Of a stretch of 64,000 bases of DNA, positions 20,986 to 32,981 are shown in pieces. The DNA is taken from positions 1,232,490-1,296,489 of the forward strand of contig NZ_RAPQ01000008.1 of NCBI RefSeq assembly GCF_003610555.1, written 5' to 3'. Source of the DNA: Marinifilum flexuosum (GTDB lineage Bacteria; Bacteroidota; Bacteroidia; Bacteroidales; Marinifilaceae). The stretch's first letter is position 1. Each line of letters opens with the position of its first letter. The position numbers and the translations under genes are program-made. Under the pieces are notes generated by a model. The model did no database searches. It was not told the origin of the DNA and was given only the letters and a program-made list of their open reading frames with translations.

Positions 20986-21258
20986 AATAGGAAATAGCGA
21001 AAATTTGAAGTGTTAATTTGTTCGAATTGAACATTGAATACATGAAGAAAAATGTTGTGTGATTCTCTTTTTTATTCATGTTGGATGGAAAAATATTAGC
21101 GCAAAGCTTTGCGAAAAATAAGTTTTGGGCTATAAAATTGAATTGAAGCTTACATTTTCAGAAAAAACCTATTTAAATAATAGTGTCAGAAAATCAAGTT
21201 GTTGCGAAAGTTATTTAGAATTTAAATTTCGTAAAAACAGGAATTGGGAATCGTAGGA

Positions 21259-21291
21259 TTTGGAAAAAAAAGATTTTTTCACATACATTTG
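21259..21291 (+). promoter_or_regulatory. Promoter of the ilv operon
   Basis: TTTG at 21259-21262, a 21-bp spacer and TACATTTG at 21284-21291 match the Bacteroidota consensus. The predicted start near 21299 gives an RNA leader of about 475 nt before ilvD, containing two leader ORFs and two terminators. Confidence 0.7.
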
Positions 21292-21379
21292 TCGCATAGA
21301 TTTGTCAGCGTAATCAGATCGAAAGAAAGATTGTAAATGTTCGTTGACAAAATTAAAAACAAACAAAAAAAATTACAAC

Positions 21380-21463
21380 ATGCGTTTAAGCACAGTCATT
21401 ATTATTAACGTCATTATTCTTGTCCTTCTAGGACACAGAACGGGGCTTTGCATGTTTAAGTAA
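21380..21463 (+). CDS. ilv leader peptide 1 (Ile/Val/Leu-rich)
   Basis: 27 residues, MRLSTVIIINVIILVLLGHRTGLCMFK. Eleven of the twelve residues from Val6 to Leu17 are Ile, Val or Leu (5 Ile, 3 Val, 3 Leu). Ribosomes starved for any of these would stall there. The later codons contain GGGGCTTT (21442-21449), which can pair with AAAGCCTC of the terminator at 21490-21521. A stalled ribosome leaves this segment free to disrupt the terminator; a ribosome reaching the stop codon masks it and allows termination. It is too short for ordinary gene finders. Confidence 0.8.
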   Translation: MRLSTVIIINVIILVLLGHRTGLCMFK

Positions 21464-21489
21464 ACGAATTTAATTGTTACAAAATATCT

Positions 21490-21521
21490 AAAGCCTCTTC
21501 AAAACGAAGGGGCTTTTTTTT
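21490..21521 (+). terminator. Attenuator 1 terminator of the ilv operon
   Basis: AAGCCTCTTC-AAAAC-GAAGGGGCTT followed by a run of T. Its 5' arm can instead pair with the end of leader ORF 1. Confidence 0.8.
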
Positions 21522-21535
21522 GATCAGGTTATTGT

Positions 21536-21625
21536 ATGTTATCATTTAACGTAGTCATTATCGTCATTATTATTTCTATCGTCATTATTGGAATGAGGAT
21601 CAGGGAAGACGTGCACACACAATAA
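21536..21625 (+). CDS. ilv leader peptide 2 (Val/Ile-rich)
   Basis: 29 residues starting MLSFNVVIIVIIISIVII; the block contains 4 Val and 8 Ile and no Leu, so it should sense Ile and Val only. The codons for Arg-Glu-Asp contain GGGAAGA (21603-21609), which is complementary to TCTTCCC (21653-21659) in the next terminator. It has the same architecture as leader 1, directly downstream of attenuator 1's terminator. I see no separate promoter between the two, so they act in series on one transcript. Confidence 0.8.
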   Translation: MLSFNVVIIVIIISIVIIGMRIREDVHTQ

Positions 21626-21649
21626 CTTCGAAGCAAACGAATTTATGAG

Positions 21650-21680
21650 CGCTCTTCCCAAAAGGAAGGGCGTTTTTTTT
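21650..21680 (+). terminator. Attenuator 2 terminator of the ilv operon
   Basis: CGCTCTTCC-CAAAA-GGAAGGGCG followed by T8, 94 bases before ilvD. Confidence 0.8.
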
Positions 21681-21773
21681 GCTTCGACTGCGCTCAGCAC
21701 AAGTTTGAAAGCGCTACAAGCAAGAGATTAAGTGAGAACAAACACAAGATAAACGATTTAACTATTAAGCGAA

Positions 21774-23609
21774 ATGTATAAGAAACCGTTACGAAGTAAT
21801 CAAACCACACAGGGCCGAAGAATGGCAGGAGCCAGAAGCCTTTGGCGTGCCAACGGAATGAAAGAAGAGATGTTTGGCAAACCTGTTATTGCTGTAGTAA
21901 ACTCTTTTACACAATTTGTTCCCGGACACGTTCATTTAAAGGATGTTGGGCAAATGGTAAAGCAGGAGATTGAGAAGTCGGGCTGCTTTGCTGCTGAGTT
22001 TAACACCATAGCCATCGACGATGGGATTGCCATGGGACATGACGGCATGTTGTATTCACTTCCATCAAGAGAAGTTATTGCTGATAGTGTGGAGTATGTG
22101 TGTAATGCGCACAAGGTAGATGCCATGATTTGTATCTCGAATTGTGATAAAATTACGCCAGGAATGATGATGGCCGCAATGAGGCTGAACATTCCAACTG
22201 TGTTTGTATCAGGAGGTCCAATGGAGGCTGGTGAATCGAAAGGTGAAAAGCTGGATTTGGTTGATGCCATGGTAAAAGCCGGAGATGAAAGCGTAAGCGA
22301 TGAGAGATTGCAAGAGATTGAAGAGTCTGCTTGTCCAACTTGCGGTTCGTGTTCGGGAATGTTCACAGCCAATTCGATGAACTGTTTGAACGAAGCACTG
22401 GGATTGGCATTGCCAGGAAATGGTACTGTTTTGGCCACTCATGCAAATCGCAAGCGCTTGTTTATGGATGCTGCAAATTGCATTGTTGAGATTACCAATG
22501 CCTACTACAAGGATGGCGACGAGAGTGTTTTGCCTAGATCAATTGCAACATTCGAAGCCTTTAAAAATGCAATGACTTTGGATATTGCAATGGGTGGATC
22601 AACCAATACAGTGCTGCATTTGTTGGCAATTGCAAGTGAGGCAGAAGTTGATTTTACCATGAAGCACATGGATGAGCTTTCGCGCAAGACACCAAACCTT
22701 TGTAAGGTAGCACCAAACTCGGATAAATATTACATCGAAGATGTGAATCGTGCTGGTGGAATCATGAGTATTCTTGGAGAGTTGGCAGCTGGTGGATTGT
22801 TGAACACCAATGTTGGTAGAGTGGACTATTCAAGCTTGCAGGAAGCCTTGAACGAGTACAATCTAAACTCTACGACGGTAAGCGATAAAGCTTTGTCTAC
22901 TTACCATTCAAGTCCAGGCAGAAAGGGAAGAAACTTGAGTTTTGCATCTCAGAATGAAGTATATGCTGATTTGGATGCAGATCGTGAAAAGGGATGTATC
23001 CGAAGCATGGAAAATGCTTACACCAAGGATGGTGGACTGGCTGTACTGTTTGGAAATATTGCACCAGATGGTTGTGTTGTAAAAACAGCAGGTGTTGCCG
23101 AAGAGGCATTCAATTTTACAGGAACGGCAAAAGTTTTTCAATCGCAAAGAGATGCTTGTGAAGCAATTCTAACCAAAAAAATAGAAGCAGGTGATGTGGT
23201 GGTGATCCGTTACGAAGGACCATCGGGAGGACCGGGCATGCAAGAGATGTTGTACCCAACTTCCTATCTGAAATCCATGGGACTGGGAGCAAAATGTGCA
23301 CTCATTACCGATGGAAGATTTTCAGGAGGAACTTCAGGCTTATCCATTGGTCATGTTTCTCCGGAAGCAGCAGCAGGAGGAGCTATCGCACTCATTGAAG
23401 ATGGAGATCAAATTGAAATCAGTATCCCAAGCAGAAGTATCAATGTTTGTATTTCGGATGAGGAACTGCAAGGAAGAAGAGCTGAAGAGGAAGCATTCGG
23501 AAATGAGGCTTATCAGCCAAGAGGCAGAGGACGAGTCGTTTCGAAAGCTCTACAAGCTTATTCGAAACTAGTCTCCTCGGCAGACAAAGGAGCGATACGA
23601 CAATTGTAA
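21774..23609 (+). CDS. ilvD: Dihydroxy-acid dehydratase
   Basis: 611 residues. It dehydrates 2,3-dihydroxy-isovalerate and 2,3-dihydroxy-3-methylvalerate to the keto acids, the third step of Val/Ile synthesis, in the cytoplasm. Fe-S ligand motifs are [12 protein letters not shown] (about residues 122-133) and [19 protein letters not shown] (about 188-206); GGSTNT and the C-terminal [14 protein letters not shown] are also present. It is full length and first in the operon after the double attenuator. Its stop overlaps the ilvB start (TAATG), so the two are coupled. Confidence 0.97.
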
Positions 23610-25369
23610 TGGAACAGCAAAAAACGAACAAAATGGAAACAGCAGCAAAAGCAGAAAATATCAAGGAGATGAATAATACAGGTGAAACCTTATCTGGGGC
23701 AGAAATATTGGTTCGTAGTTTAATACAAGAAGGTGTTGATACCATGTTTGGATACATTGGTGGTGCTATCATGCCTGTTTACGATGCTTTATATGATTAT
23801 CAGAAAGAACTAAAACATTATATGTCGCGCCATGAGCAAGGAGCAACTCATAGTGCTCAGGCTTATGCCAGATTGACAAAAAAACCAGGTGTTTGCTTTA
23901 CGACTTCGGGACCGGGAGCAACAAACCTATTGACTGGTTTGGCTGATGCTTATTTGGATTCGACTCCAATGGTTGTAATAACCGGACAGGTTCCTAGTGG
24001 TTTATTGGGATCAGATGCATTCCAGGAAACCAATATGGTTGGACTTTCGATGCCAGTTACCAAATGGAATTTCCAAATCACGAAAGTGGAAGAGATTGCA
24101 GAGGTAATGGCAAAGGCATTTTACATTGCACGCACAGGACGTCCAGGACCAGTATTGATTGATATCACCAAGGATGCACAGGTACAGAAAGCTGAATACA
24201 AGTATGAAAGATGTAAAGGAATTCGTTCGTACCAGCCGGTACCAAAGCTAAATATGGATGAGATATTGGCGGCAGCTGAACTGATTAATTCTGCCAAGAA
24301 ACCAATGATACTTGCAGGGCAGGGAATTTTATTGTCGGGAGCAGAGCAGGAGTTGATGGAGTTTGCTGAAAAGATACAAACACCAGTTGCTTGTACTTTA
24401 TTGGGCTTGTCTTCATTTCCTACTGATCATCCATTGTATGTTGGAATGTTGGGAATGCACGGGAACTACGGTCCTAATATGAATACCAATCAATGTGATG
24501 TTTTGATCGCGATTGGAATGCGCTTCGATGATCGTGTAACTGGAGATACATCGAAATATGCCAAGCAAGCAAAAATTGTTCATATCGATATTGATAGATC
24601 TGAGCACAACAAAAATATAAGTGTTGATGTTCCGGTATTGGCAGACGCCAAGCAGGCATTAACAGAACTGAATAAAGTGGTAAGTGGTTCTGAGCGTGAG
24701 GAATGGATGCAGTCTTTCAAAGATTATTACCAATTGGAGTATGAAAAGGTAATTGAAAAGCAAACGCACTCATCTCGCGAGAGAATTAATATGGCTGAGG
24801 TAATTGATTGTTTGTCGGAAAAAACAAATGGTGAGGCAGTACTTTGTACAGATGTAGGACAGCACCAAATGACAAGCGCAAGGTATTACAAGTTCAAGAA
24901 CCCGAATACACAGGTTACCTCTGGTGGATTGGGAACCATGGGCTTTGGTATGCCGGCAGCAATTGGAGCTCAAATTGCAGATCCAAATGCAACCGTTGTT
25001 TCGGTTTCGGGCGATGGTGGTTTCCAGATGACCATTCAGGAATTGGCAGTAATTCGCCAGTACAAATTGCCGGTTAAGTCGATTGTATTGAACAATTCAT
25101 TCCTTGGAATGGTACGCCAGTGGCAGGATTTATTCTTTGAGCAACGATTCTCATACACAGAGATGGACAATCCTGATTTTGTGAAAATTGTAGAAGGATA
25201 CGGCATTAAGGCAAAAAGGGTAAGCAAGCGTGAAGAATTGCAGGATGCGATTCAGGAGATGATTGATTTTCCAGGAGCTTTCTTCCTTGAAGTGGTTGTA
25301 GAAACAGAAAGCAATGTATTGCCAATGATCGCTCCAGGAGCTGCTGTATCTGAAATGAGACTGGAATAA
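23609..25369 (+). CDS. ilvB: Acetolactate synthase large subunit
   Basis: 586 residues. It condenses two pyruvates, or pyruvate plus 2-ketobutyrate, using thiamine diphosphate. After a 30-residue polar extension come the N-terminal TPP domain with the catalytic Glu in SRHEQGATH, the central FAD-binding domain (MILAGQGIL onward; RFDDRVTG) and the C-terminal TPP domain with the GDGGFQMTIQELA metal-binding motif and NNSFLGMVRQWQ. An in-frame ATG at 23633 is an alternative start. Paired with ilvN downstream. Confidence 0.97.
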   Translation: MEQQKTNKMETAAKAENIKEMNNTGETLSGAEILVRSLIQEGVDTMFGYIGGAIMPVYDALYDYQKELKHYMSRHEQGATHSAQAYARLTKKPGVCFTTSGPGATNLLTGLADAYLDSTPMVVITGQVPSGLLGSDAFQETNMVGLSMPVTKWNFQITKVEEIAEVMAKAFYIARTGRPGPVLIDITKDAQVQKAEYKYERCKGIRSYQPVPKLNMDEILAAAELINSAKKPMILAGQGILLSGAEQELMEFAEKIQTPVACTLLGLSSFPTDHPLYVGMLGMHGNYGPNMNTNQCDVLIAIGMRFDDRVTGDTSKYAKQAKIVHIDIDRSEHNKNISVDVPVLADAKQALTELNKVVSGSEREEWMQSFKDYYQLEYEKVIEKQTHSSRERINMAEVIDCLSEKTNGEAVLCTDVGQHQMTSARYYKFKNPNTQVTSGGLGTMGFGMPAAIGAQIADPNATVVSVSGDGGFQMTIQELAVIRQYKLPVKSIVLNNSFLGMVRQWQDLFFEQRFSYTEMDNPDFVKIVEGYGIKAKRVSKREELQDAIQEMIDFPGAFFLEVVVETESNVLPMIAPGAAVSEMRLE

Positions 25370-25465: not shown

Positions 25466-25981
25466 ATGAAAGAATATACAATAACGGTTTTTTCCGAAAA
25501 TAATATAGGATTGTTGAATGAGGTAACAATAGTTTTTTCTCGTCGAAAAATAAATATTGAAAGTCTTACTGTTTCAGAATCTGAAGTAAAGGGAGTATCG
25601 CGCTATACCATCGTAGTTTTTTCTGATGAAAAGAAAATTGAGAATGTGGTTCGACAACTGGAAAAAATCATAGGCGTATTTAAGGCGCTTTATTTTAAAG
25701 CAGAAGAAATCGTTCATCAGGAGGTGGCGCTATTCAAGATTGCCAACTCTCCGAAACTGAATGGGAATCTTGAAGCCTTGATTCGTAGACAGAATGCCAA
25801 GATATTAACTGTAAATCCGGACTTTTTGGTGATTGAGCGAGTAGGATACAAAGCAGAGAATCAAGAGTTGTTCAATGAGTTGGAACAATATGGTGTACTG
25901 CAGTTTGCAAGATCAGGAAGAGTAGCAGTCTCTTGTCAGAAAAAAGAGTTTACAAGTTATCTAAAAGAGTTATCGCACTAA
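25466..25981 (+). CDS. ilvN: Acetolactate synthase regulatory small subunit
   Basis: 171 residues. An N-terminal ACT domain (about 3-75, YTITVFSENNIGLLNEVTIV; INIESLTVS) binds valine for feedback control of IlvB, and a C-terminal ACT-like domain (about 85-160) is also present. Length is usual for the family. It follows ilvB by 96 bases without a terminator, so it belongs to the same transcript. Confidence 0.95.
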   Translation: MKEYTITVFSENNIGLLNEVTIVFSRRKINIESLTVSESEVKGVSRYTIVVFSDEKKIENVVRQLEKIIGVFKALYFKAEEIVHQEVALFKIANSPKLNGNLEALIRRQNAKILTVNPDFLVIERVGYKAENQELFNELEQYGVLQFARSGRVAVSCQKKEFTSYLKELSH

Positions 25982-26058: not shown

Positions 26059-27105
26059 ATGGCAACAATTAATTTTGGCGGCACAGAAGAACAAGTAGTA
26101 ACTCGTGAAGAATTTCCATTGGAAAAAGCTCGCGAAGTATTAAAAGAGGAAACCATTGCAATTATTGGTTATGGTGTACAAGGGCCAGGTCAGTCATTAA
26201 ACCTAAAAGATAACGGCTTTAATGTAATCATTGGTCAGCGTAAAGAATCAAAAACTTGGGATAAGGCCGTAGCCGACGGTTGGGTTCCGGGAGAAACTCT
26301 TTTCGAAATTGAGGAAGCTTTAGAGAAGGCAACTATCATTCAATATTTGCTTTCGGATGCTGGACAGATTGCTGTTTGGCCAACCGTTAAGAAATATTTG
26401 ACTCCAGGGAAAGCATTGTATTTCTCACACGGATTTGGAATCACATATAAAGAACGTACAGGTATCGTTCCACCAGAAGATGTTGATGTAATCCTGGTTG
26501 CACCTAAAGGATCAGGAACCAGTTTGAGAAGAATGTTCCTGGAAGGTAGAGGTTTGAATTCATCTTATGCAATTTTCCAGGATGCAACAGGAAAAGCTTT
26601 CGATAGAGTGGTTGCATTGGGTATTGGTGTTGGTTCAGGTTACCTTTTCGAGACTACATTCAAGAGAGAAGTATACTCAGACCTAACAGGTGAGCGTGGT
26701 ACATTGATGGGATGTATTCAAGGTATTTTTGCAGCCCAGTATGAAGTTCTTCGTGCCAATGGTCACTCTCCATCAGAAGCTTTCAATGAAACGGTTGAGG
26801 AATTGACTCAAAGTTTGATGCCATTGGTTGCTGAGAACGGTATGGACTGGATGTATGCAAATACTTCAACCACTGCACAACGTGGAGCTTTGGATTGGTG
26901 GAAGCCTTTCCGCGATGCAACCAAGCCTGTTTTCGAAAAACTATACAAAGAAGTTGCTGCTGGTAATGAAGCTCAACGTTCTATCGACTCAAATAGTGAA
27001 GAGAACTACCGTGTGAAGTTGGAAGAAGAATTGAAGGAATTACGTGAAAGCGAAATGTGGCAAGCAGGAACAGCTGTTCGTAAGCTTCGTCCAGAAAATA
27101 ATTAG
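26059..27105 (+). CDS. ilvC: Ketol-acid reductoisomerase
   Basis: 348 residues, class I length. It isomerises and reduces acetolactate and acetohydroxybutyrate with NAD(P)H and Mg2+. The nucleotide-binding motif IIGYGVQGPGQSLNLKDNG lies near residues 35-53, followed by IGQRKESKTW, whose Arg and Ser residues favour NADPH. The C-terminal knotted domain has the metal-binding acidic motifs (YSDLTGERGTLMG; EVLRANGHSPSEAFNE). It is last in the ilv transcript; a gap of 557 bases with a new leader precedes leuA. Confidence 0.97.
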   Translation: MATINFGGTEEQVVTREEFPLEKAREVLKEETIAIIGYGVQGPGQSLNLKDNGFNVIIGQRKESKTWDKAVADGWVPGETLFEIEEALEKATIIQYLLSDAGQIAVWPTVKKYLTPGKALYFSHGFGITYKERTGIVPPEDVDVILVAPKGSGTSLRRMFLEGRGLNSSYAIFQDATGKAFDRVVALGIGVGSGYLFETTFKREVYSDLTGERGTLMGCIQGIFAAQYEVLRANGHSPSEAFNETVEELTQSLMPLVAENGMDWMYANTSTTAQRGALDWWKPFRDATKPVFEKLYKEVAAGNEAQRSIDSNSEENYRVKLEEELKELRESEMWQAGTAVRKLRPENN

Positions 27106-27363: not shown

Positions 27364-27371
27364 TAGGTTTG
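27364..27371 (+). promoter_or_regulatory. Probable -7 element of the leuA operon promoter
   Basis: TAGGTTTG matches TAnnTTTG. The only -33 candidate, TTG at 27337-27339, is spaced 24 bp, longer than the ideal. The start would be near 27379, about 40 bases before the leader ORF. Confidence 0.45.
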
Positions 27372-27418: not shown

Positions 27419-27508
27419 ATGATGTACGCAAGTTCATTAATTATTGGTTTAATTCTCATTCTTGATCTCATTATTATTAAAAGATCGAGTAGGAAGACTG
27501 TGTTATAA
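27419..27508 (+). CDS. leu leader peptide (Leu/Ile-rich)
   Basis: 29 residues, or 28 from the second ATG. The block LIIGLILILDLIII contains 5 Leu and 7 Ile and no Val. Downstream codons carry GGAAGA (27492-27497), which is complementary to TCTTCC in the 5' arm of the terminator at 27537-27570. This repeats the design of both ilv leaders. It separates control of leuA-leuC-leuD-leuB-ilvA from that of the ilv genes and tunes it toward Leu plus Ile. Confidence 0.8.
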   Translation: MMYASSLIIGLILILDLIIIKRSSRKTVL

Positions 27509-27536: not shown

Positions 27537-27570
27537 AAAGTTCTTCCAAGATGGAGGAACTTTTTTTTTT
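27537..27570 (+). terminator. Attenuator terminator of the leu operon
   Basis: AAAGTTCTTCC-AAGAT-GGAGGAACTTT followed by T-rich DNA, 93 bases before leuA. Confidence 0.8.
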
Positions 27571-27662: not shown

Positions 27663-29159
27663 ATGAGTGACAAGTTATTTATTTTCGACACAACATTGCG
27701 CGATGGTGAGCAAGTGCCGGGTTGCCAATTGAATACTATTGAAAAGATTGAAGTGGCAAAAACACTTGAGGCATTAGGTGTTGATGTAATCGAAGCTGGC
27801 TTTCCGGTTTCAAGTCCAGGGGATTTTCAGTCGGTCGTCGAGATCGCTAAAGCAGTAAGCAATCCAACCATTTGTGCGTTAACACGTGCAGTTGAAAAAG
27901 ATATAGACGTTGCTGCTGAGGCGCTCAAGTTTGCAAAACGAGGAAGAATCCACACAGGAATAGGAACTTCACCATATCATATCAAATCGAAATTAAATTC
28001 GAATCCCGATGAAATTCTTGAACGTGCAGTTCGTGCCGTAAAATACGCAAAGCGATATGTTGAGGATGTTGAGTTTTATGCAGAAGATGCAGGTAGATCG
28101 GACAATGAGTATTTGGCCAGAGTAGTTGAGGCGGTAATTGCTGCAGGTGCTACGGTAATTAATATTCCTGATACTACAGGTTACTGTTTGCCCGCTGAAT
28201 ATGGTGCTAAAATCAAATACTTGATGGAGAATGTGTCTAACGTTCACAAGGCGATTCTATCTACTCACTGTCACAACGACTTGGGAATGGCAACAGCCAA
28301 CTCATTAAGTGGTGTGATCAACGGAGCTCGCCAGGTCGAGGTAACCATCAATGGGATAGGGGAACGTGCTGGAAATACTTCTCTGGAAGAAGTTGTGATG
28401 GCTGTTAAAACGCATCATGATTTGCCATTGCATACCGATATCAATACCAAGGAAATTTATGGAGCAAGTCGTTTGGTATCCTCATTAATGAACATGCCGG
28501 TACAGGCCAACAAGGCAATTGTAGGTAGAAATGCATTCGCTCACTCTTCAGGAATCCACCAGGATGGAGTTTTGAAAAACAGAGAGAACTATGAAATTAT
28601 TGATCCGGTTGAAGTTGGTATTCAGGAATCAGCAATTGTATTGACAGCTCGTAGTGGTCGTGCAGCTTTAAATCACCACTTGGAACAAATGGGTTACAAT
28701 TTGACGAAGGAAGAATTGGATGAAGCCTATTCTAATTTCTTGGTGATGGCCGATCAGCGTAAGAATTTGAGCGAGAAAGACCTTGCTGAATTGATGGGTG
28801 AAAAAGAGAATTTGGACAAAACGGTAGAATTGGAATTGTTGCAGGTTGTTTCCGGTAAATCAACCATTCCAATGGCAACGGTTCACCTTAAAATTAAAGG
28901 AGAAAGTTGTGCGGCAACTGCCGAAGGTAATGGCCCAATCGATGCTTGTTTCAATGCAGTGAAGAAGTTGATCAAACAAAAATTCACCTTGGGAGAATTC
29001 TTGGTGCAGGCCTTAACCCGGGGAAGTGATGACCTTGGAAAGGTACACGTTCAATTAGAGCACAATGGTAAGGTAGTATACGGCTTTGGTGCCAATGTAG
29101 ATATCATTACCGCTTCGGTTGAAGCCTTGGTAGATGCGCTTTCGAAAGTAGTTTACTAA
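27663..29159 (+). CDS. leuA: 2-isopropylmalate synthase
   Basis: 498 residues. First step of leucine synthesis: acetyl-CoA plus 2-ketoisovalerate. DTTLRDGEQ lies at residues 9-17, the metal ligands in [13 protein letters not shown] (about 200-212), the second signature [14 protein letters not shown], and a C-terminal allosteric domain (about 375-498) for leucine feedback. First gene after the leu attenuator. Two hairpins follow its stop (29168-29197 and 29233-29245) and may modulate read-through to leuC. Confidence 0.93.
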
Positions 29160-29316: not shown

Positions 29317-30717
29317 ATGGAACCAAAAACATTATTTGATAAAGTTTGGGATGCTCACGTGGTTGAGAAGATCGAAGGAGGTCCTAGTGTATTGTATATC
29401 GATAAACACCTGATACACGAGGTAACAAGCCCACAGGCATTTGCTGGTCTTGAATCTAGAGGATTAAAAGTTTTTCGACCAGAGAAAACCGTTGCCACTC
29501 CTGATCACAATATCCCAACGGTAAATCAGCATCTGAAAATTGAGGATGAATTGTCAAGAAATCAGATAGAAACTTTAACTGCAAATTGCAAGAAGAATGA
29601 TATTACCCTTTACGGATTGAATCATCCAAAGAATGGTATTGTTCACGTGGTTGGACCAGAATTGGGACACACGCAGCCGGGTATGACTATGGTTTGTGGA
29701 GATAGCCATACCTCTACACATGGTGCTTTTGGAGCTGTTGCTTTTGGTATTGGTACTTCGGAAGTTGAAATGGTATTGGCTACCCAGTGTATTCTTCAGC
29801 CTAAGCCTAAGAGAATGCGCATTACCATTGATGGTGAATTGCAAAAAGGCGTTACAGCTAAAGATCTTACCCTATATGTGATTGCTCAATTGGGAACAGG
29901 TGGAGCAACCGGATATTTTGTGGAGTATGCAGGATCTGCAGTTCGTAACTTGACCATGGAAGGCAGAATGACGGTTTGTAACATGAGTATTGAAATGGGT
30001 GCTCGTGGTGGAATGATAGCACCAGACGAAACCACTTTCGAATATGTAAAAGGTCGGGAGTTTGCCCCTAAAGGTGAAGATTGGGACAAAGCCGTTGCCA
30101 AATGGAAGGAATTAAAAACCGATGATGGAGCAGTATTCGATAAGGAATACACATATAAAGCAGAAGACATTGAACCAATGTTGACTTACGGTACAAATCC
30201 AGGAATGGGAACAGGAATTTCCGGCAACATTCCAACGGCTGAGGAAGTTGAAGCTTCCGAATTGCCTACCTTCAAAAAATCATTGGAATACATGGGCTTT
30301 GGTTTGGGTGATAAGCTGCTAGGCAAAAAGGTAGACTACGTATTTGTTGGAAGCTGTACCAATGGAAGAATCGAAGACTTAAGAATGTTGGCATCTCTTG
30401 TTAAAGGCAAGAAGAAAGCTGATTCGGTAACCGCATGGATTGTTCCAGGTTCCAAGCAAGTGGAAAAACAAGCTCAGGAAGAAGGATTGGTTGAAGTATT
30501 GGAAGAAGCCGGATTTGAATTGCGTCAGCCAGGATGTTCGGCATGTTTGGCCATGAACGACGATAAGATTCCTGCAGGAAAATATAGTGTTTCTACATCG
30601 AACAGAAATTTTGAGGGAAGACAAGGTCCTGGATCAAGAACTCTTTTGGCTAGTCCGCTAACAGCGGCAGCAGCTGCAGTTACTGGTGTAATTACCGATC
30701 CTAGAGAATTGTTTTAA
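29317..30717 (+). CDS. leuC: 3-isopropylmalate dehydratase large subunit
   Basis: 466 residues, usual length. Aconitase family; isomerises 2- to 3-isopropylmalate with LeuD. The [4Fe-4S] ligands are Cys in [13 protein letters not shown] (about 343-355) and the pair in [11 protein letters not shown] (about 405-415). The substrate motif [12 protein letters not shown] is near 128-139. leuD follows after 69 bases in the same transcript. Confidence 0.97.
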
Positions 30718-30786
30718 TAAAATATTTACAAATATTTTTTAGCTGAAGGCTTGTGGCTGGAAGCTAATCGCTTAAAAGATAAAAAA

Positions 30787-31368
30787 ATGCCAATAGATAA
30801 ATTTACCGTATTAGAGTCGAGTTATGTACCTCTTCCAATTGAGAATGTAGATACGGATCAGATTATTCCTGCACGATTTCTTAAAGCAACCAGTCGTGAA
30901 GGTTTTGGAGAAAACTTGTTTAGAGACTGGAGATTTGCTGCTGATGGATCAGAAAACAAAGACTTTGTATTAAATAACCCAAAATATTCAGGACAAATTC
31001 TAGTTGCAGGTAAAAACTTTGGAAGTGGTTCTTCAAGGGAACACGCAGCATGGGCTGTTCACGATTATGGATTCAAGGTAGTAGTTAGCAGTTTCTTTGC
31101 TGACATTTTCAGAAACAATGCACTAAACAATGGAGTGTTGCCAGTAATTGTATCTCCTGAATTTTTGAGCAAAGTATTTGCTGCAATTGAAGAAGATAGC
31201 AGTCAGAAACTGGTTGTGGATCTTGAAGAACAAAGTATATCACTAAATGGTGAGAAAGAGGAGTTTGAAATTAATCCTTACAAGAAGAACTGCTTGTTGA
31301 ATGGATTCGATGATATCGATTATCTCCTGGATAAAAAAGAAAATATAGTAGAATTTGAGAAGGAGTAA
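30787..31368 (+). CDS. leuD: 3-isopropylmalate dehydratase small subunit
   Basis: 193 residues from the ATG at 30787; the ATG at 30751 only adds 12 residues from an untranslated-looking stretch. [13 protein letters not shown], the swivelling domain and [12 protein letters not shown] are diagnostic. Forms the active isomerase with LeuC. Confidence 0.95.
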
Positions 31369-31421: not shown

Positions 31422-32981
31422 ATGAACGAACTGCGTAGCTTAGAGATAATGGATACCACCCTTAGGGATGGTGAGCAGACTTCGGGAGTTAGTTTTAATG
31501 CCGATGAAAAATTGGGTGTTGCTAAGCTCTTGTTGAAATCCGTTAAAGTAGATCGATTGGAAGTTGCTTCCGCGAGAGTATCAGAAGGAGAATTTCAGAC
31601 GGTAAAACGAATTACTAAATGGGCCGAAGAAAATGGTATGATTGATAAAATCGAGGTACTTGGATTTATTGATGGGAAAGCTTCGTTGGATTGGATTTAC
31701 AAAAGTGGTGCACGTGTAGTAAACTTGCTGTCGAAAGGTTCCTTAAAGCATTTACAGGGACAGTTGCGGAAAACTCCCGGGCAGCATGTTCAGGATGTAA
31801 AGGATGCGGTTGCTTACGCAGAAGAATTAGGCATAAAAGTGAACCTTTATTTGGAGGATTGGTCGAATGGAATGCTGACTTCGAGAGATTACGTTTGGTA
31901 CCTTTTGGATGAATTGCAAAATGAAAACATTCAAAGATTCATGTTGCCTGATACTTTGGGAGTGATGAATCAGGTTCAGGCATTCGATTTTTGCTATGCT
32001 TGTCGCGAAAGATATCCAAAACTTCATTTCGATTTTCATGCCCATAACGATTACGATTTGGCTCTGGCCAATGTGTATTCATCGGTGTTGGCAGGTGTAA
32101 ACGGAATTCATACCACGGTAAACGGATTGGGCGAAAGAGCAGGAAATGCACCTTTGGCCTCTGTTGTTGGAGTAATAAAAGATCACCTGTCACGACAAAT
32201 CAATGTAAACGAGGAAAAGATCAATACGGTGAGTCGTATTGTTGAAACTTTTTCAGGTGTAAGAATTCCGGCCAACAAACCATTGGTAGGTGAGAATGTA
32301 TTTACCCAAACTTGTGGAGTGCATGCTGATGGTGACTCCAAAGACGACTTGTACTTTAATCGATTAATGCCAGAGCGCTTTGGTCGTGAACGAAAGTATG
32401 CTTTGGGGAAAACATCCGGTAAGGCAAATATCAAGAAAAACTTGGAAGAGCTGGGAATGACACTGGAAGAGGAAACCATGAAAAAGGTGACTCAGAAAGT
32501 AATTGAACTTGGCGATAAAAAGGAAAGCGTTACCACTGAGGATCTTCCTTACATTGTTTCTGATGTTTTGAATCAGAGCATGGAAGAGATGCCAATTGTA
32601 ATAAAGCATTATTCCTTGTCTTTATCGAAAGGGATGAGGCCTTTTGCATCGGTTAATTTGGAAATTAACGGACAGATGCACGAGGGAACCGCATCTGGCG
32701 ATGGACAGTACGATGCTTTCATGAATGCAATTTGGTCGGTGTATGAGCAGCTGGGAAAAGATCGACCTGTGCTGAAGGATTATTTCGTAAGGATTCCTCC
32801 CGGAGGTAAAACCGACGCACTGGTAGAAACCTTAATTACCTGGGATTTTAATGGAAGAGAGTTTAAAACTCGTGGATTGGATCCCGATCAGGTGGAAGCA
32901 GCAATTAAAGCAACAGCTCGAATGTTGAACCTTTTGGAGCAACAAAACAATGTAGAATACAAAAAAATAAAAACAGAATAA
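31422..32981 (+). CDS. Second isopropylmalate/citramalate synthase-like protein
   Basis: 519 residues. It is of the LeuA/homocitrate family: [16 protein letters not shown] at residues 10-25, metal ligands in [24 protein letters not shown], and a C-terminal LeuA-dimer (regulatory) domain (about 390-505). It diverges clearly from the leuA product: TSGVSF instead of VPGCQL after the first motif, and a longer regulatory part. It lies between leuD and leuB, where Bacteroidota often have a second synthase. It could be (R)-citramalate synthase (pyruvate plus acetyl-CoA, feeding LeuCDB to 2-ketobutyrate for Ile) or a second isopropylmalate synthase. The sequence alone does not decide. Confidence 0.85.

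Follow-up and report, generated by a model that had tools for sequence, protein, structure and literature searches.

Gene cluster and leader ORFs

Two short leader ORFs, each followed by an intrinsic terminator, are located upstream of ilvD in the window (the whole stretch of 64,000 nucleotides that was analysed; Table 1). Leader 1 (MRLSTVIIINVIILVLLGHRTGLCMFK) contains 5 Ile, 3 Val and 5 Leu residues, three of the Leu in its core, and leader 2 (MLSFNVVIIVIIISIVIIGMRIREDVHTQ) comprises 9 Ile, 5 Val and a single Leu (residue 2), of which 8 Ile and 4 Val belong to the core. The stem of terminator 1 consists of 11 pairs (21490–21516), that of terminator 2 of 12 pairs (21647–21675), and both are followed by a T-run. 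Each terminator has an alternative partner: GAA[C]GGGGCTTTG[C]ATGTTT pairs with AAATAT[C]TAAAGCCTCTTC in antiterminator 1, and GGGAAGA[C]GTGC with GCGCTCTTCCC in antiterminator 2. The initial annotation had described both leaders, both terminators and the complementary segments, and all of them are present where it had placed them. The complementary segments are both longer than reported there, and its residue counts hold for the cores, not for the whole peptides with their five Leu (leader 1) and one Leu (leader 2).

A detector accepting ATG-started ORFs of 8 to 60 codons that are rich in Ile, Leu and Val and have a terminator at most 90 nt behind them gave no match when 109 real upstream regions were dinucleotide-shuffled into 545 copies, and a chance meeting of hydrophobic ORF and terminator was rejected on this ground. 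Run over both strands of the full 64-kb window in 410 tiles, it returned exactly three ORFs, namely leaders 1 and 2 and a third one upstream of leuA. Leader 3 (MMYASSLIIGLILILDLIIIKRSSRKTVL) is preceded by a promoter motif of its own: TAGGTTTG, 24 nt behind a TTG, a combination found with unchanged spacing in 19 of 19 leuA upstream regions. The leader is present in 18 of 20 family genomes; the remaining two (L135 and L136), whose downstream regions gave no leuA match, are left out of the leader-3 counts. Up to the last control codon, 5 to 7 Ile, 3 to 5 Leu and no Val are encoded (19 loci). The antiterminator of this unit is paired in 92.3% of the alignment cells, with no compensatory change and with 389 of 500 shuffles pairing as well. 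Leader 3 appears to be a third conserved attenuator in the cluster and is new relative to the initial annotation. LeuACD serves leucine, and the citramalate synthase route serves isoleucine. Judged by gene annotation and this general pathway knowledge, the Ile/Leu content of leader 3 would fit leuACD and the citramalate-synthase-like gene downstream of it; the codon content of the leaders agrees with the annotated products of the genes behind them.

The spacers between regions 2 and 3 share a short element: AAACGAATTTA occurs once behind leader 1 (21462–21472) and once behind leader 2 (21635–21645). The leader-3 spacers of L127 and L128 contain AAACGATCATAATAC.

Table 1. Features of the branched-chain amino acid cluster, with positions in the window.
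Feature	Position	Strand	Basis
Putative promoter motif, Bacteroidota type, TTTG - 21 nt - TACATTTG	21259..21291	+	kept in 22/22 family loci
Conserved 5'-UTR hairpin, TTTGTCAGCG / CGTTGACAAA	21301..21351	+	99.4% of cells paired, 18 distinct rows
Leader peptide 1 (Ile/Val control codons)	21380..21463	+	ORF, conservation, detector
Local hairpin over leader 1 control codons, possible pause-type region 1	21417..21440	+	kept, no covariation
Putative attenuator 1, region 2 (5' strand of antiterminator 1)	21438..21457	+	folding, alignment
Putative attenuator 1, region 3 (3' strand of antiterminator 1, includes terminator 5' arm)	21482..21500	+	folding, alignment
Intrinsic terminator 1 with T-run	21490..21521	+	stem, alignment
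Leader peptide 2 (Ile/Val control codons)	21536..21625	+	ORF, conservation, detector
Local hairpin over the final control codons in leader 2, possible pause-type region 1	21578..21600	+	compensatory changes
Putative attenuator 2, region 2	21603..21614	+	folding, covariation
Putative attenuator 2, region 3 (part of the 5' arm of terminator 2)	21649..21659	+	folding, covariation
Intrinsic terminator 2 with T-run	21647..21680	+	covariation
ilvD, dihydroxy-acid dehydratase	21774..23609	+	
Acetolactate synthase large subunit	23609..25369	+	
Acetolactate synthase small subunit	25466..25981	+	
ilvC, ketol-acid reductoisomerase	26059..27105	+	
Putative promoter -7 motif before leader 3, TAGGTTTG, TTG 24 nt upstream	27364..27371	+	conserved motif and spacing
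Leader peptide 3 (Ile/Leu, no Val)	27419..27508	+	ORF, conservation, detector
Intrinsic terminator 3 with T-run	27537..27570	+	
leuA, 2-isopropylmalate synthase	27663..29159	+	
leuC, 3-isopropylmalate dehydratase large subunit	29317..30717	+	
leuD, 3-isopropylmalate dehydratase small subunit	30751..31368	+	
Citramalate-synthase-like gene	31422..32981	+	best NCBIfam model CimA, 656.9 bits, below cut-off 950

Distribution among relatives and promoter motifs

From 123 ilvD loci fetched, 13 duplicates and L108, whose contig starts inside ilvD, were removed, leaving 109 that were counted. Two leader-terminator pairs were detected in 26 of these, one in 52 and none in 31, the last group including eight loci named as other phyla (L070, L075, L079, L080, L095, L096, L104 and L110). 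The Marinifilum/Ancylomarina/Labilibaculum clade, which also holds Marinifilaceae MAGs, has the tandem pair in each of its 22 distinct loci. The ilvD of the window is 99% identical to that of Marinifilum sp. D737, which points to a Marinifilum-type genome, and over the divergence seen here ilvD identity goes down to 84%. The other four tandem loci are L062, L065 and L074 (Prolixibacteraceae; L065 Bacteroidota) and L120 (same GTDB family, other genus). L021 and L121, also from the same GTDB family and another genus, have a long hairpin with no clear T-run behind the second leader, perhaps the remnant of a terminator or a switch of another kind; both were left out of the 26. Among the 52 single-leader loci, 40 peptides contain two or more residues each of Ile, of Leu and of Val, and five lack Val. 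In a FastTree protein tree with several forks open, the tandem label needs five changes, by either gain or loss, and six when L021 and L121 are counted as tandem and the loci with no pair are left out. The ilvD of L070, on a contig named Spirochaetaceae bacterium 4572_59, groups beside the Marinifilum clade in this tree, the result of either gene transfer or a mis-binned contig.

Upstream of leader 1, TTG-N21-TA[CT]ATTTG is present in all 22 family loci and follows the promoter consensus of Bacteroidota. A second TAnnTTTG of the window (21297–21304) has no TTG at -33. From the ATG of leader 1 to ilvD, the motif scan gave no TAnnTTTG in any of the 22 family loci. The absence of a promoter in between, on which the series order of the initial annotation depends, is thereby borne out at motif level, at which a promoter between the leaders was rejected. 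The motifs point to one promoter upstream of both leaders and none between them, i.e. to an arrangement in series. Were leader 2 mostly transcribed from a promoter of its own, the two units would lie in parallel; a 9-of-12 site from a generic sigma-70 scan (21546–21573, inside leader 2) might be taken for such a promoter, but eight sites of this quality are present in the region against a shuffle mean of 5.8 (sd 2.3), and both the site upstream of leader 1 and the lack of TAnnTTTG behind its ATG are constant in the 22 loci, which makes the parallel arrangement very improbable.

A stem formed by TTTGTCARCG and CGTTGACAAA is conserved in the 5'-UTR upstream of leader 1, with one-sided, wobble-type changes only. 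It sits near the expected 5' end of the RNA, and it could serve RNA protection or the binding of something. In L062, L065, L074, L120, L021 and L121, TAnnTTTG is located 28 to 31 nt before the ATG of the first leader (in L120 with no TTG at -33), so that the leader mRNA would be almost leaderless; the 5'-UTR of the Marinifilum clade is longer. Between the leaders of these six loci, TAnnTTTG occurs in L074 only, again with no TTG at -33.

Alternative base pairing and folding

The alignments contain distinct rows only (A1 14, A2 18, A3 15, A4 17, A5 10 and A6 18). Both sides of terminator 2 are changed in 8 cells, a number reached by none of 500 shuffles, and two of its pairs show compensatory changes, a count matched by 131 of 500 shuffles; these controls, like all covariation controls given here, span related loci and are uncorrected for kinship. 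Antiterminator 2 has three compensatory pairs (20 of 500 shuffles) in four cells (4 of 500 shuffles). Changes in the 5' arm of terminator 2 (columns 64 and 65 of A2) come with changes in the 3' arm, and region 2 co-changes in L006, L010 and L040 or otherwise retains G-U pairing. In attenuator 1 (14 rows), 99.3% of the terminator cells and 79.7% of the antiterminator cells are paired; all changes are one-sided, and compensatory changes were found in neither structure. Hence covariation in both hairpins, proposed as a check in the initial annotation, is seen for terminator and antiterminator 2 and not for attenuator 1. The second helix of antiterminator 1 (ATATTT/AAATAT) keeps five of its six pairs in all 14 distinct rows. 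Outside Marinifilum, several outer and inner pairs are lost and this helix is largely kept, which suggests that antiterminator 1 is present but weaker there. A plain duplex of region 2 and the terminator arm scored no better than shuffles in any of the seven loci covered outside Marinifilum (23 to 86 of 300 as good). In each of 29 folds from 15 of the 22 loci, the antiterminator segments were more stable than dinucleotide shuffles (z from -2.0 to -5.4, 0 to 4 of 100 shuffles as low). Complementarity of region 2 reached p < 0.05 against shuffles in 43 of 60 leader-terminator pairs outside the clade and in only 23 of 44 leaders within the family. Codon runs and complementary segments are thus retained by relatives across the 22 loci, as the initial annotation had predicted, with antiterminator 1 kept only in part.

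The uneven record of the two units is what would be expected if only one attenuator worked, most probably the second, and the first were a weak or decaying copy that lowers basal transcription: the second covaries, and the first has no compensatory changes and a weaker antiterminator outside Marinifilum. An inert copy should have decayed over the divergence seen here (ilvD identity down to 84%), but the Ile/Val core and the terminator of leader 1 are present in 22 of 22 loci, its Val codons are GTC in 55 of 61 cases, and the ATATTT/AAATAT helix persists in every distinct row. A single working attenuator is therefore unlikely in our view. Still less can be said for a reading without any attenuators, in which ordinary terminators of upstream genes lie next to hydrophobic small proteins. 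Small Ile/Val-rich ORFs could indeed encode membrane peptides, but the C-termini of leader 1 differ through a frameshifting 1-nt indel just behind the control codons, the leaders are biased towards rare codons, regions 2, 3 and 4 of attenuator 2 change together, and the arrangement recurs before ilvD in 78 of 109 loci. This reading is largely refuted and hardly tenable.

A local hairpin forms over the last control codons in each leader when folded, TTCTTGTCCT/AGGACACAGAA in the first and ATCGTCATT/AATGAGGAT in the second (four loci folded), contrary to the initial annotation, which had seen no separate region 1. In the leader 2 hairpin, two of nine pairs are compensatory (28 of 500 shuffles), in three cells (1 of 500 shuffles). 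The core of the leader 1 hairpin, GTCC...GGAC, is kept in 21 of 22 loci, with GTCA in the remaining one and no covariation, and the hairpin is maintained across the 1-nt indel that shifts the frame behind it. Both hairpins adjoin region 2 with little overlap and so resemble pause hairpins more than full 1:2 sequestrators; in that role, they could let the first ribosome catch up.

Folding was also run with a ribosome in place, its edge assumed to lie 12 nt past the first base of the A-site codon; in this model, region 2 is free on stalling and covered at the stop. In all 43 leaders, 5 to 12 bases of the terminator arm are tied up by region 2 and the sequence around it while the ribosome sits on the last control codons. 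Once it has moved to the stop codon, none of the arm is held in 42 of 43, leader 1 of L012 being the exception. When the whole terminator is included, it is itself the structure of lowest energy in 40 of 43 leaders, even for a stalled ribosome. The terminator wins at equilibrium, so the switch would have to be kinetic.

Control codons, signal logic and related systems

GTC accounts for 1.9% of 1083 Val codons in the 28 window ORFs of at least 200 aa. In the related loci it makes up 55 of 61 Val codons of leader 1 and 60 of 80 of leader 2, counts that are not independent of each other; it is the main Val control codon of both leaders. CTC is similarly rare (1.6% of 1291 Leu codons in window ORFs) and provides 28 of 72 Leu codons in leader 3 and none of 55 in leader 1. 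Attenuation is expected to gain sensitivity from regulatory codons that are rare (PMC1183508), and with GTC and CTC such codons are present here. Among the tRNA genes found in the genome (tRNA loci L174–L207; 150 of 500 candidates were scored in the first round), tRNA-Val was seen only with the anticodon UAC (three genes) and no tRNA-Val(GAC) with G34 was found, where a missed gene is possible; one tRNA-Leu(GAG) is among them.

The first 17 residues of leader 1 contain 4 to 8 Ile, 2 to 3 Val and 1 to 4 Leu including N-terminal ones (22 loci). Up to its last control codon, leader 2 has 8 to 9 Ile, 3 to 5 Val and 1 to 2 Leu (21 loci; L012, with one Ile changed to Phe, falls outside the pattern and is included in alignment A4). 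The initial annotation had understood the pair as an AND gate for different amino acids, leader 1 sensing Ile, Val and Leu and leader 2 Ile and Val, with the operon integrating separate signals. The LVLL that closes the core of leader 1 in the window speaks for such a gate, as does the presence of at least one Leu in the first 17 residues of every leader 1. Yet Leu amounts to just one or two residues in 14 of 22 loci even when N-terminal ones are counted, the rare Leu codon used in leader 3 is absent from leader 1, and every leader 1 keeps at least four Ile and at least two Val while Leu varies from 1 to 4. With GTC as the predominant Val codon in each, the two leaders read the same amino acids, Ile and Val. 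Moreover, if the core of leader 2 is without Leu, Leu in leader 1 adds nothing logically: (Ile or Val or weak Leu) AND (Ile or Val) equals Ile or Val, which would fit the pair better than an AND gate. The gate for separate signals is accordingly a doubtful proposition, with rather little probability in our estimate.

In our judgement, the probable arrangement upstream of ilvD is a series of two complete ribosome-mediated attenuators of transcription that share one transcript and one promoter and together multiply the response to one signal. A freely moving ribosome would pass the Ile/Val codons, reach the stop codon and cover region 2, and the terminator would form. A ribosome held at Ile or Val codons, mainly at the rare GTC, would leave region 2 free to pair with the 5' arm of the terminator, and RNA polymerase would continue. 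Each leader would thus act as an OR over its own amino acids, and the series pair would multiply read-through. As the two leaders are read for the same amino acids, a shortage of Ile or of Val should open both attenuators, and Leu shortage alone should leave the second one closed. Overall read-through would be the product of two probabilities, with lower leak and a steeper and wider response to one signal. We infer from the features described that the leaders are translated, that transcription ends at the terminators and responds to starvation, and that the two effects multiply. A third attenuator of the same build, tuned to Ile and Leu without Val, would act from its own promoter motif on leuA-leuC-leuD and the citramalate-synthase-like gene.

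Attenuation by leader peptides is textbook knowledge. In the ilvD leaders, codons for the product amino acids stand in a run, an intrinsic terminator precedes the structural gene, and an antiterminator is indicated by covariation in attenuator 2 and by folding and partial conservation only in attenuator 1. By these sequence tests the pair would belong to the ribosome-mediated leader-peptide attenuators. No Rfam family reached the gathering score in the window, and a known riboswitch or T-box was rejected accordingly; the best hit below threshold in 21200–21800 was Phe_leader (22.8 bits vs 55, E 0.22). Elsewhere in the genome, five consecutive His codons were matched 15 times (control pattern 4); the matches in short frames, judged by eye with the 140 bases behind them, showed no leader-plus-terminator, and the rest lie in longer frames.

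Branched-chain operons of E. coli have leader-peptide attenuators (PMC3783181). As in the enteric ilvGMEDA (ilvL), ilvB (ivbL) and leuABCD (leuL) operons, a short ORF with regulatory codons and antitermination on stalling is placed before a branched-chain operon. Unlike in the enteric systems, two units with the same amino acids are arranged in series here, a third lies within the cluster, and the pause-type hairpin adjoins region 2 with no clear sequestering. To our knowledge, enteric branched-chain operons carry one attenuator each.

Tandem arrangements are known from other leaders. In the mgtCBR leader of Salmonella, the tandem ORFs mgtM and mgtP sense ATP and proline additively, and the stem-loops are unlike intrinsic terminators (PMC3641672). 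Two leader ORFs in tandem on one leader mRNA before an operon are common to mgtCBR and the ilvD locus, but here both units are Ile/Val by codon content and both have intrinsic terminators; among the titles seen on tandem leader peptides, mgtCBR was the only one with tandem attenuators. The rimP-leader of some Gammaproteobacteria has a second tandem terminator upstream of the first and a potential antiterminator (PMC2965389). It differs in the gene concerned, and the passage on it mentions no amino-acid leader peptide; 'Bacteroid' is absent from the main text of that paper. Upstream of Bacillus clausii metE, two switches with intrinsic terminators lie in series in one 5' leader (PMC3641672); in contrast to such tandem riboswitches, where RNA binds two ligands, the sensor here would be the translating ribosome. 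Leader-peptide-like sORFs are mentioned in general terms in a transcriptome paper on B. thetaiotaomicron (PMC7366714). The initial annotation speaks of earlier reports of branched-chain attenuators in Bacteroidota; no description of one was found in the titles and abstract openings of the literature searched, outside of which many subscription papers lie, so that this absence carries little weight. Further counterparts are the single ilvD attenuators of other Bacteroidota, which share the gene, the anatomy and similar terminator arms; in distinction to most of these (40 of 52 peptides with two or more residues each of Ile, of Leu and of Val), the cores of the Marinifilum clade are Ile/Val.

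Taken further, the locus may represent a natural cascade, in which the same amino acids are read twice on one transcript for dynamic range, a third and differently tuned unit is matched to the downstream pathway, GTC without a G34 tRNA is the sensor codon, and the whole is one form of a widespread, uncatalogued attenuator class of Bacteroidota; we give this wider reading about even chances. The existence of such a class would mean that transcription and translation are tightly coupled in Bacteroidota, and attenuators before ilvD in many members of the phylum make ribosome-polymerase coupling testable there. Placing two units for identical amino acids one behind the other poses a design question of leak, range and steepness, and comparing the single and double versions among relatives can answer it. 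If codon content indeed tracks the pathway from one point of the cluster to the next, the locus would offer a clear example of product-tuned attenuators.
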